Shown here piece after piece: positions 18,930-22,107 of a DNA stretch of 64,000 nucleotides. The translations under genes were made by a program, and so were the position numbers. Numbering within the stretch: position 1 is the stretch's first letter; the number at the start of each line of letters is the position of its first letter. Origin of the DNA: Mucilaginibacter ginkgonis. GTDB taxonomy: Bacteria; Bacteroidota; Bacteroidia; Sphingobacteriales; Sphingobacteriaceae. The DNA lies in assembly GCF_009754905.2 (NCBI RefSeq), contig NZ_CP066775.1, forward strand, positions 186,001 to 250,000. Direction: 5' to 3'. The notes under the pieces were generated by a model. That model searched no databases, was not told the origin of the DNA, and saw only the letters and a program-made list of their open reading frames with translations.

Positions 18930-19072
18930 ATAAATTGGTTAAAGTAATTGGTAATGAGGTCCCCAATGTTCATAAAATTTTCGGCACTTGCAAATATTTG
19001 AGCCGTAAAATGCGCCAAATTACCACTCATTTAAATATTTTAAATAGTTTAGGGAACCAAACGATAAGCTTA

Positions 19073-20515
19073 ATGGAAAATAGTACGGATAAAAAAGAGA
19101 TGAAGCACGAGCTGGGCTTGCTTGACGGTACCATGCTGGTTGCAGGCTCTATGATAGGCTCAGGGATATTTATTGTAAGTGCCGATATCGTTCGCCATGT
19201 GGGCTCTGCAGGTTGGCTGATCGCCATTTGGTTGCTTACCGGGTTTATGACCCTAACCGCTGCTGTGAGCTATGGCGAACTAAGCGCCATGTTCCCCAAA
19301 GCTGGCGGGCAATATGTGTATTTGAAAGAAGCTTATAACAAGTTTGTTGCCTTTTTATACGGCTGGAGTTTCTTCGCTGTAATACAAACCGGGACGATAG
19401 CTGCCGTAGGTGTTGCCTTTTCTAAGTTTACAGCATATCTGATACCGGCGGTTAGCGAAGACAATATTTTGCTAGCGATAAATACCGGCGGCAGCAAACC
19501 CTTTACTATCAGCGCGGCGCAGTTAGTTTCCATTGTACTTATCATTTTGCTTACATGGATAAATACCCGTGGTGTTAAAAGCGGCAAGATCATACAAACA
19601 ACGTTTACATTAACGAAATTATTAAGTCTCTTCGGGCTGATCATTTTTGGCTTATTAGCCTTTAAAGCTGATGTATGGCATGCCAACTGGAATAACGCCT
19701 GGAACATGCATGCGCTGAATGCTAACGGAACCATCACCGCCCTTACGACTGCTGCAGCAATGGGCGCCATTGCTGCTTCTATGGTAGGATCTATTTTTAG
19801 CAGTGACGCCTGGAACAGCGTGACATTCATCGCGGGAGAAATGAAAAACCCGCAACGCAATATTGGTTTAAGTTTGTTTTTAGGCACGCTTATCGTGACT
19901 GTTATCTACGTTTCTGCCAATGTAATGTACACCGCGGTGCTGCCTATGCATGAAATTGCTACGGCAGAAAAGGATAGGGTGGCAGTAGCCGCGTCGCACG
20001 TTATTTTTGGAAATATAGGAACGATAGTTATCGCGTTGATGATCATGGTATCAACTTTTGGATGCAATAACGGGTTGATACTGGCCGGAGCCAGGGTTTA
20101 CTACACGATGGCGCAAGACGGGCTATTCTTTAAGAGAACCGGTACACTCAACAAAAACGCAGTACCCGAATTTGGTTTATGGATTCAATGCCTGGTAGCA
20201 TCTCTGCTTTGCCTGAGCGGCCGTTACGGCGACCTGCTGGACATGATCTCATTTGTGGTAGTCATCTTTTACATCCTTACCATTGTAGGCATATACATTC
20301 TTCGTAACAAACGCCCTGACGCCCCGCGACCATACAAGGCGTTTGGCTATCCGGTTTTGCCTGCAATTTATATTTTAATGGGTCTGGCGTTCTGCATATT
20401 GTTAATCATCTACAAACCTGAATTTACCTGGCCGGGACTGATAATTGTGCTGATAGGCATACCTATCTATTACATCTCGCAAAGAAACGTGAAGAATGAA
20501 CAAGTTTTGGATTAG
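19073..20515 (+). CDS. APC-family (L-type) amino-acid permease
   Basis: 480 residues from the ATG at 19073, chosen because the 46 in-frame residues upstream lack family similarity and the helix 1 signature MLVAGSMIGSGIFIVSADI then falls at the normal distance from the start. About twelve membrane helices are visible; FSSDAWNSVTFIAGEMKNPQRN is the helix 6-7 block of LAT-like transporters. The substrate is likely a neutral amino acid, but this is unproven. The divergent arrangement with hppA leaves about 143 bases for two promoters. DacB follows after 2 bases (longest frame) or 107 bases (preferred start). Confidence 0.88.
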   Translation: MENSTDKKEMKHELGLLDGTMLVAGSMIGSGIFIVSADIVRHVGSAGWLIAIWLLTGFMTLTAAVSYGELSAMFPKAGGQYVYLKEAYNKFVAFLYGWSFFAVIQTGTIAAVGVAFSKFTAYLIPAVSEDNILLAINTGGSKPFTISAAQLVSIVLIILLTWINTRGVKSGKIIQTTFTLTKLLSLFGLIIFGLLAFKADVWHANWNNAWNMHALNANGTITALTTAAAMGAIAASMVGSIFSSDAWNSVTFIAGEMKNPQRNIGLSLFLGTLIVTVIYVSANVMYTAVLPMHEIATAEKDRVAVAASHVIFGNIGTIVIALMIMVSTFGCNNGLILAGARVYYTMAQDGLFFKRTGTLNKNAVPEFGLWIQCLVASLLCLSGRYGDLLDMISFVVVIFYILTIVGIYILRNKRPDAPRPYKAFGYPVLPAIYILMGLAFCILLIIYKPEFTWPGLIIVLIGIPIYYISQRNVKNEQVLD

Positions 20516-20531
20516 GAATGGCATCGTTTTT

Positions 20532-20644
20532 TAACACACCCCTATCAAAGGCAGTGAAGATTTGCGGTGCCTTAGCTATCCCCTCTCAAGAGGGGAAATG
20601 CAGGCTAGTGCAGTTTGCAGAAATGTTGAAAAAGGGGTGTGTTA
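20532..20644. repeat. 113-base inverted-repeat element (family C variant) overlapping dacB
   Basis: Perfect 12-base terminal inverted repeats TAACACACCCCT (20532-20543) and AGGGGTGTGTTA (20633-20644) enclose an inner palindrome CCCCTCT/AGAGGGG (20580-20595). The inner part matches the family C core seen at 39.2-39.6 kb. The right arm lies inside the dacB coding sequence. Confidence 0.75.
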
Positions 20645-22014
20645 TGGTGGTTATGTTAGCATTTAATTTTGCATCACATGCCCAAACCCTCAACCAAAAA
20701 TTGCAAACAGCATTTACCCGGCTGCAGCAAGACCCGCAGAATACTTACGCATCACTGTCATTAACCGTACTGGATGCCAAAACAGGCGAAGTAGTCTTTG
20801 CGGCTAATCCTAACACGGGCTTGTCAACGGCATCAACACTAAAAACCATTACGACTATCACGGCCATGAACTTGCTCGGACCTGATTATCGTTTTAAAAC
20901 CAGCCTGACCGGGTTTGGTCTACTGCAAAAAGACGGCACATTTGCTGGCAATATTATTATTCATGCAGGCGACGACCCTACATTGGGAAGCTTCCGTTGG
21001 GACCAGACTAATGAAAGCACTGTACTCTTCGAGTTTGTTGACGCGATCAAAAAGGCGGGAATTAAAAAAATATTAGGACAGGTTTACGCCGAAGGTACTA
21101 ACCATGAATTGCCAGGGTGGATCTGGCAGGATATAGGTAATTACTATGGTGCTTTTCCGGCGAACCTTTGCTGGCGAGAAAATTCATATGATATTTTACT
21201 CGAGCCAACAAAACCGGGCCATTCTGTCGAGATGACGGGCACAGTTCCAAAGATGCCTTACCTGCAATTTGATAATCAGTTAAAAACCGGCGCGCCCGGG
21301 TCCGGCGATAATGCCTATGCCACTATACCTGTAAATGGCAATTGGGTGTATCTGCAGGGAACATATGCTACAGACCAGGAGAAGCGAAAAATAAGCGCCG
21401 CCTTACCCGATCCCGCTTATGAAGCGGCACGAAGATTAACAGATACGTTGCGGCAAGCAGGTATAACCGTAGCAGGCAATCCTAAAACCGCGTCGATGCA
21501 TCTGCTTAACGAAGATAACTTCGATCTGGGCAAGGCTTATTTTTTTACTACACATTATTCGCCACCGCTGAGAAAGATCATTTATTGGCTTAACCAAAAA
21601 AGCATAAACCTTTACGCGGAGCAGTTGCTCTTGGCTATGGCAGATTCGCTCAAAACAACCGACCGCCCGTCTGTGATCCGTAATTTTTGGAAAGATAGGG
21701 GCATCGATAAAAATTCATTGAATGTGGCTGATGGCAGCGGCTTGTCGCCCGCCAACCGCGTAACCACTATAACCATGGCCAAGATATTACAGTCGGCTAA
21801 GAAAGAAGCATGGTACCCCGATTTTTTCGCCAGCCTGCCGGTTTATAACAATATGCACATGAAGAGCGGCACCATTGGCGGCACATTGGCCTACGCAGGC
21901 TACCAAACTTACCAGGGCCGCGAACTTTGTTTTTCTATTATTGAAAATAACTTCAGCGGTAAAACATCAGACATCAGGCAAAAGATGTTTAAAGTGCTTG
22001 ATGAGATGAAGTGA
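20623..22014 (+). CDS. dacB: D-alanyl-D-alanine carboxypeptidase/endopeptidase (PBP4 type)
   Basis: Periplasmic peptidase that trims or cleaves peptidoglycan cross-links. The start at 20623 gives 463 residues and a proper signal peptide (MLKKGCVMVVMLAFNFASHAQ). The frame is open back to 20518, but the extra 35 residues are repeat-derived and unlike a signal. The catalytic triads are present: SxxK as STLK in STASTLKTIT, SxN as SIN in KSINLYAEQLL, and KTG as KSG in MKSGTIGG. The large insertion between the first two motifs is typical of DacB/PBP4. The n-region lysines are encoded within the terminal arm of a dispersed repeat. Confidence is high in the function and moderate in the start. Confidence 0.9.
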   Translation: MLKKGCVMVVMLAFNFASHAQTLNQKLQTAFTRLQQDPQNTYASLSLTVLDAKTGEVVFAANPNTGLSTASTLKTITTITAMNLLGPDYRFKTSLTGFGLLQKDGTFAGNIIIHAGDDPTLGSFRWDQTNESTVLFEFVDAIKKAGIKKILGQVYAEGTNHELPGWIWQDIGNYYGAFPANLCWRENSYDILLEPTKPGHSVEMTGTVPKMPYLQFDNQLKTGAPGSGDNAYATIPVNGNWVYLQGTYATDQEKRKISAALPDPAYEAARRLTDTLRQAGITVAGNPKTASMHLLNEDNFDLGKAYFFTTHYSPPLRKIIYWLNQKSINLYAEQLLLAMADSLKTTDRPSVIRNFWKDRGIDKNSLNVADGSGLSPANRVTTITMAKILQSAKKEAWYPDFFASLPVYNNMHMKSGTIGGTLAYAGYQTYQGRELCFSIIENNFSGKTSDIRQKMFKVLDEMK

Positions 22015-22031: not shown

Positions 22032-22107
22032 TGTCATGCTGAGGCTCTCGAAGCATAAAGAGCTTCATCAGCCCAACGCACCATGCTTCGAGAGCCTCAG
22101 CATGACA
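22032..22107. repeat. Dispersed palindromic repeat, family B, complete copy
   Basis: Two perfect 25-base inverted arms (22032-22056 and 22083-22107, beginning TGTCATGCTGAGGCTCTCGA) enclose a 26-base spacer. Half copies occur at 8249-8273 and 54739-54762. It lies between the convergent dacB and folC genes. Confidence 0.85.

Follow-up and report, generated by a model that had tools for sequence, protein, structure and literature searches.

A dispersed palindromic repeat apparently inserted in frame into the dacB signal peptide of seven Mucilaginibacter species, and its possible spread by DUF559 nucleases

The 5' end of dacB of Mucilaginibacter ginkgonis is overlapped by a palindromic element. 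This raises the question of whether the repeat provided the gene with its translation start and secretion signal, or was inserted into a signal peptide that already existed. The locus was studied in a window of 64,000 nucleotides, meaning the whole stretch of DNA that was analysed, and in related genomes. The initial annotation had described a 113-base element with perfect 12-base inverted arms and an inner palindrome within the part of a PBP4-type gene that codes for the signal peptide. This description is accurate: the arms TAACACACCCCT and AGGGGTGTGTTA are perfect 12-nt inverted repeats, and the gene product matches PF02113 (Peptidase_S13, PBP4/DacB) with an E-value of 1.5e-60. Its codon arithmetic is also right, in that the ATG at 20623 is followed by two lysines, the right arm lies in codons 4-8 counted from this ATG, and the next in-frame ATG is at 20644. 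What it overlooked is that the whole element is open in the dacB frame from an ATG at 20518 (Table 1). Judging from the gene arrangement, translation of dacB and of the upstream permease gene may be coupled. The right arm encodes K-G-C directly before the hydrophobic core.

Table 1. Positions of the dacB-associated features in the window.
Feature	Position	Strand	Remark
dacB (D-Ala-D-Ala carboxypeptidase, Peptidase_S13)	20518..22014	+	upstream ATG favoured by comparison; element corresponds to codons 6-42
Upstream amino-acid permease	18935..20515	+	stop 2 nt before ATG 20518
Alternative internal ATG in element (start of the initial annotation)	20623..20625	+	
Palindromic element, family B copy	20532..20644	+	113 nt including outermost T/A pair
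AACAC...TGTT core, 111 nt	20533-20643		in register with the copies of relatives
Left terminal arm (tip) TAACACACCCCT	20532..20543	+	read N-T-P-L from 20533
Right terminal arm AGGGGTGTGTTA	20633..20644	+	read (K)-G-C-V
Central hairpin CCCCTCTCAAGAGGGG	20580..20595	+	

The proposal that the repeat is dispersed was borne out by a genome search: the 3,697,784-base genome of M. ginkgonis contains 13 copies of the tip AACACACCCCT, compared with 0 occurrences of a reversed control pattern. The double-armed architecture, searched as an exact pattern, is found at 2 places in this genome, and a family model whose training set includes the dacB copies retrieved the dacB place alone among the 25 of 974 candidates that were scored. 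The strong fold predicted at the gene start was confirmed as well, as the RNA of 20525-20650 folds with -51.8 kcal/mol (z -4.97) and none of 200 shuffled sequences folds as well. An Rfam search of 20300-20900 gave no match up to E 1, and a distant-mode search of phage records gave no match. By eye, another long palindrome, tgtcatgctgaggctctcgaagcat...atgcttcgagagcctcagcatgaca, is seen just 3' of dacB (window positions 22032-22107). Beside the dacB stop of other Mucilaginibacter (for example L062, L070 and L074), frames of the reverse strand contain words like PPLGGWGA or PLQGVRG, which resemble additional hairpin repeats.

A protein search with DacB produced matches in 142 of 149 genomes of the genus, and the dacB starts were inspected in 38 of these 142. 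The element is present at the same place of dacB in seven Mucilaginibacter species, M. ginkgonis (G000) and six others (G015, G177, G186, G060, G128 and G167), whose DacB proteins are 70-72% identical to that of G000. Shared 40-mers at the dacB locus relate G015 to M. agri, G186 to M. straminoryzae and G128 to M. polytrichastri. The nearest outgroup, G046 (DacB 63%), lacks the element and reads MQKNRLQNLLILSFLLLGGFARAQ. Together with 28 and another two relatives it makes up a set of 31 without the element, which have plain short starts such as MKRLLIVSFLLIGGSVAAQ. An MLKKGC start devoid of repeat arms was looked for in these 31 repeat-free relatives and is absent, in line with the initial annotation, and KGC or LGC forms are always accompanied by the repeat in the relatives inspected. 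In other carriers an upstream start and a basic n-region precede the element (which begins after the first hyphen): G015 reads MKVRFKEGLK-NTPLMKD...FNKGC-IILMMCLLFVNNLYAQ, G167 reads MKVRYKVNLT-NTPQFKV...KRKLGC-VIGVFALLFSLGSQAQ, and a third form is MRHLLSEVL-DTPL.... The nearest upstream ORF of at least 100 aa ends 203-370 nt before the element in three of the seven species, and tight coupling to the upstream gene is therefore not general.

Several properties of the dacB copies are consistent with translation across the element. Frame 0 is open in all seven, compared with none for frame +1 and one for frame +2; one antisense frame is likewise open in five of the seven. When only the spacers were shuffled, frame 0 stayed open with a probability of 0.10-0.23 per species, but the seven open frames are not independent because of their shared ancestry, which weakens any product of these probabilities. 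Among 37 copies located outside dacB, 24 of the 74 strand readings are open in this register. The length of the dacB copy is 111 nt in six species, and in G186 it is 114 nt as cut (three extra bases) or 111 nt as matched by the model; it is a multiple of three in all seven. The 37 other copies are 105-110 nt long, and 11 of them have a length divisible by three. Two species, G167 and G186, have one base more to the left of the hairpin and one fewer to its right, such that the dacB phase is kept and the hairpin is read in a second frame (NPLSRG or SLSRG versus PSREG). In G177, G060 and G128, no ATG, GTG or TTG occurs from the start of the element to the hydrophobic core, and translation in these species must therefore begin upstream and cross the repeat; internal ATGs are present in G000 and G015, and internal TTGs in G167 and G186. 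The inserted peptide seems weakly constrained: within the closest trio, G177, G060 and G128, its pN is 0.12-0.14 versus 0.04-0.07 for mature DacB, and with pS values of 0.07-0.29 the pN/pS of the element is ambiguous. This trio alone was used, as the ungapped mature-protein comparison looks misaligned for pairs that include G000 or G015. For these analyses of frame and context, and for those of flanks and tip types below, coordinates were transferred by hand from earlier tables.

From these comparisons we infer that the element is translated as part of dacB, from the upstream ATG. The idea that the repeat created both the start site and the n-region is not supported by the relatives, which start upstream with a basic n-region, and three of the seven species have no internal start. 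A part of it survives for M. ginkgonis, where the start at 20518 reads MASFFNTPL... and all basic residues are supplied by the repeat, whereas the n-region of the relatives precedes the element. In the other six species no ATG stands at the codon that starts at 20623 here; in G015 an ATG lies three codons upstream of it. The ATG at 20623 could at most be a local, species-specific alternative start.

We then compared the parts of the element between five divergent species (G000, G015, G186, G128 and G167). Arms plus hairpin show 325 of 360 pairwise identities (90%), versus 321 of 724 (44%) for the spacers; divided by part, the values are 165/180 for the outer stem, 160/180 for the hairpin with its loop, and 157/361 and 164/363 for the two spacers. 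As the dacB copies were found via DacB and not via the repeat, they were not selected by the repeat's own sequence. Stem cells are paired in 95.5%, and none of the 16 pairs in the two stems of the dacB copies is changed on both sides. We conclude that the letters themselves are kept, and RNA pairing is not claimed as the selected trait. The fold z-scores of the seven dacB regions are -5.2, -1.4, -4.1, -2.4, -5.2, -4.1 and -6.3, the poorly folding region (-1.4) being that of G015, and those of eight dacB regions without the element range from -2.5 to +0.1. Applied to all 24 full copies, RNAalifold supports the outer stem and the central hairpin plus a single further pair, and it found one pair changed on both sides. 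With the dacB copies of the seven species, a weak 3-pair helix is added that has both-sided changes and many breaks. Side hairpins formed by the spacers, which produce a cloverleaf-like shape, appear in single-sequence folds of some copies; a cloverleaf common to the family is not claimed, since RNAalifold supports mainly the outer stem and central hairpin.

The family to which the element belongs, which we named family B, has the layout tip ACACACCCC, spacer, CCCCTCTCnnGAGAGGGG hairpin, spacer and mirrored tip, with a length of 105-111 nt. Exact double-armed patterns, which include two-hairpin relatives of the element, were detected in 25 of the 149 genomes. A covariance model built from the 24 aligned full copies has matches in 20 of the 149 genomes; copy numbers derived from it are rough, with at most 25 candidates scored per genome, matches often listed for both strands and 24 copies matching by construction. 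The context was examined for 37 copies outside dacB: 31 are clear of any ORF of at least 100 aa, and three extend 2-15 nt into the edge of such an ORF. Two others lie in ORFs of 111-112 aa in G167, which are taken as spurious, and one lies on the upstream extension of surE in G015. The latter was considered as a second coding copy, because its frame overlaps the element, but the sequence that we take to be the usual surE start, MKKSKPVILVVNDDG, follows the element, and this copy was therefore counted as intergenic. Among the copies examined, the dacB copy appears to be the only convincing coding one.

No target-site duplication was visible by eye in 23 copies, and no clean empty site was found at base level. 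For the copy at locus L257, the corresponding flanks in G128 (81% and 79% alike) are separated by 106 nt instead of 352; the gap also holds another repeat, and this is therefore a case of presence or absence and not a clean empty site. An abundant third repeat beside the L257 copy, the GTCATGCTGAAC palindrome, does not have the family tips and was rejected as a family member. This palindrome, GTCATGCTGAAC...GGGATGACG (L257:1671-1781), has 60 matches in the M. ginkgonis genome, counting both strands. A 909-base query that contains it gave 147 matches in M. polytrichastri (G128), and most of those listed are at that repeat.

How family B might have spread is suggested by shorter units that share its tip and hairpin (AACACACCCCTnnCCCCTCT), which are present in 30 of 100 genomes, including that of M. 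ginkgonis. In at least 14 of these 30 genomes, a DUF559 (PF04480) gene is located within 1 kb of a unit, as judged by comparing tables by eye, and in clear cases such as G028 and G042 the tips face the DUF559 gene from both sides. We analysed 40 small DUF559 genes, 38 of the genus and two of other families, with the flanks of dacB at 73 loci as controls (of 80 named loci, seven short ones were dropped). The inverted flanks of 33 of the 40 score above all 73 controls; by mode of choice, this applies to 22 of 27 genes taken blind to their flanks and to 11 of 13 chosen for an adjoining tip site. The control maximum is also exceeded by 13 of 20 small DUF559 genes taken from further families of the class.

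Three unit types, defined by the tips ACACACCCC, ACCCCTCCCT and ACTCACCC, label 18, 11 and 8 of the DUF559 genes and none fits the other 3; the motifs were defined after the flanks had been seen, and in 6 of the 37 labelled genes one of the two flanks lacks the motif. Placed on the DUF559 tree, whose bootstrap had not settled, the four labels need 3 changes, the minimum possible, versus 19.1 on shuffling. The type-1 tip is found on at least one side of 18 of the 40 genes, all within the 29-row half of the tree, and type 2 forms a single clade nested in the same half. Family B has the same tip and hairpin as the units flanking one DUF559 group, and its link to DUF559 is drawn mainly from this shared tip and hairpin. 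Full or near copies of family B adjoin DUF559 genes in G043, G033 and G060, in the last with a different tip and hairpin; an HMM scan of the family-B loci (37 contexts plus overlapping loci) detected a DUF559 gene in one only, G043. The M. ginkgonis genome has a DUF559 remnant with a stop at 2112368-2112640, which lies between units that are type 1 by eye.

A DUF559 protein compared with known structures matches 3hrl (E 6.5e-12) and weakly 3r3p (E 0.066), which was deposited as a mobile intron protein and which we take to be an EDxHD homing enzyme. A RAYT was also considered as mobiliser and rejected: by eye, no listed PF01797 match lies within 1 kb of a tip site, and the best match in M. ginkgonis has an E-value of 7.4e-7. 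The association suggests that the DUF559 nuclease moves the units. At or near the C-terminus of several DUF559 proteins (L274, L275, L280, L281, L284 and L285) the motif HTPxPSQEG is found, which is a flanking unit read as gene end, so that in these genes, too, the unit is coding. Three tandem family-B-like elements directly precede a DUF559 gene of another subfamily (L287 upstream, G060:C1:29291-29656); their side arms are similar to those of family B and their tip and central hairpin are different (CCCCTAAATTAGGGG), as if exchanged on a common scaffold.

The element has features of several known systems. Rickettsia palindromic elements (RPEs) of about 150 bp are found inserted in frame inside genes (PMC10969869), and the dacB element resembles them as a palindromic element in frame within an ORF, open and in phase in all seven dacB copies. 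The likeness is one of architecture, and it concerns another phylum; unlike RPEs, one coding copy in dacB stands among intergenic-looking ones, and this element is common to seven species with arms kept and spacers diverged. In REP/RAYT systems (REPtrons), as outlined in PMC3733652, hairpin units occur singly or as inverted pairs, the gene is flanked by cognate units, and some units lie in ORFs. Here too, short hairpin units are dispersed singly and as inverted pairs and flank a gene, but the unit AACACACCCCTnnCCCCTCTCAAGAGGGG has no GTAG/CGTC tag (by eye) and the flanked gene encodes a DUF559 nuclease instead of a tyrosine transposase. In several of the genomes that carry the repeat, Y1_Tnp is missing or gives a weak match. 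Like the MITEs RUP, NEMIS and ERIC, as treated in the same paper (PMC3733652), the element is small, has terminal inverted repeats and secondary structure, and lies next to genes. It falls within 70-300 bp and is dispersed, and one family copy is absent from the matching site of a relative. Its 12-nt arms are shorter than the 15-30 bp given for MITEs there (PMC3733652), and in contrast to MITEs no classical transposase was identified and no target-site duplication was seen by eye in the copies mentioned above.

PMC12907096 assigns the DUF559 domain to the PD-(D/E)XK type, describes it as frequent in Vsr-like proteins and treats a DUF559 protein as a Vsr-like repair nuclease. Unlike Vsr-fold or homing-type nucleases, the DUF559 proteins analysed here are linked to flanking palindromes of matching subfamily. 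Searches of the open-licence literature found no paper joining DUF559 with repetitive extragenic palindromic or inverted repeats, no title on these units among works on Bacteroidetes palindromes, RAYTs or in-frame palindromic elements, and, among the best matches listed for MITEs and inverted repeats, no mention of Mucilaginibacter.

These data bear on several ways in which the locus could be explained. Use of the ATG at 20623, within the repeat, as the start (product MLKKGCVMVVMLAFNFASHA-Q, upstream frame unused), as the initial annotation had it, would yield a 20-residue signal peptide of the usual shape; MASFF contains no basic residue before the repeat, and in G015, too, the right half contains an ATG (MALTFNKGC). 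We nevertheless regard it as improbable, as such a start is impossible in G177, G060 and G128 and the upstream frame is open and in phase in all seven species. Even less likely is a non-coding regulatory 5' leader acting as thermometer, protein-binding site or attenuator. Conserved stems beside unconserved spacers and the strong folds in most of the seven regions would suit such a leader, but the constant open frame with its compensating indels, the three species without a downstream start codon and the negative Rfam search argue against it. That the inverted repeat arose by chance and belongs to no family is virtually out of the question: apart from the shortness of the arms nothing favours it, and it is at odds with the 13 tips against 0 in the control, the family-model matches in 20 of 149 genomes and the same position in seven species.

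A rival that we consider unlikely, though less so than the preceding ones, is that of a neutral fossil, i.e., a tolerated insertion whose arms look conserved through gene conversion or palindrome correction during replication. It would agree with stems that are conserved as sequence without covariation. Moreover, the hairpin loop CAAG of the M. ginkgonis dacB copy is that of most dispersed units in this genome, where a 22-nt stretch identical to the element is present at 180091-180112, and the other six species have CGAG. Against it, no second full family-B copy that could act as donor came up in G000 or G186 among the best 25 candidates scored per genome, and the other copies vary in length.

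We favour as probable a joint reading in which an old in-frame insertion of family B in the dacB signal peptide is translated through, has kept its stems and belongs to a family spread by DUF559. Judged by comparison of the genomes, the dacB element is a real, old, in-frame repeat insertion in the signal peptide, and the simplest reading of the alignments is an insertion between n-region and core with the start at 20518. According to this joint reading, a full copy of the dispersed, REP/MITE-like family B would have been inserted once, in an ancestor of at least seven Mucilaginibacter species, splitting the signal peptide and adding 37 residues between n-region and hydrophobic core. With translation from the upstream ATG through the element, the signal peptide would then be about 55 residues long. 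Arms and hairpin may be kept by either message control, protein recognition or homogenisation: the fold over codons 6-42 could limit initiation, a protein might recognise their sequence, and the arms could also be preserved through homogenisation, whether by gene conversion or by palindrome correction. A small DUF559 nuclease, with a cognate unit of the same tip and hairpin, would have spread family B itself; as the DUF559 gene is a broken remnant in M. ginkgonis, the dacB copy would be a fossil that was kept.

A more general proposal, to which we give even chances, is that small stand-alone DUF559 (Vsr-fold) nucleases are dedicated to spreading a whole class of REP-like palindromes in Bacteroidia, every subfamily having a tip and hairpin of its own, and that the dacB unit was domesticated in two roles, as a translated part of the signal peptide and as a conserved fold or binding site through which a cell-wall enzyme is controlled. 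If true, the DUF559/palindrome pair would be a counterpart of RAYT/REP based on an unrelated enzyme. Coding palindromic insertions are best known from Rickettsia, and the one described here would be a case from another phylum, located in a signal peptide and fixed over a deep clade, in which the constraint on the nucleic acid can be told apart from that on the protein, as the stems are conserved and the spacers have diverged. The apparent enzyme partner of a common repeat type of Bacteroidia would make the spread of these palindromes directly testable.
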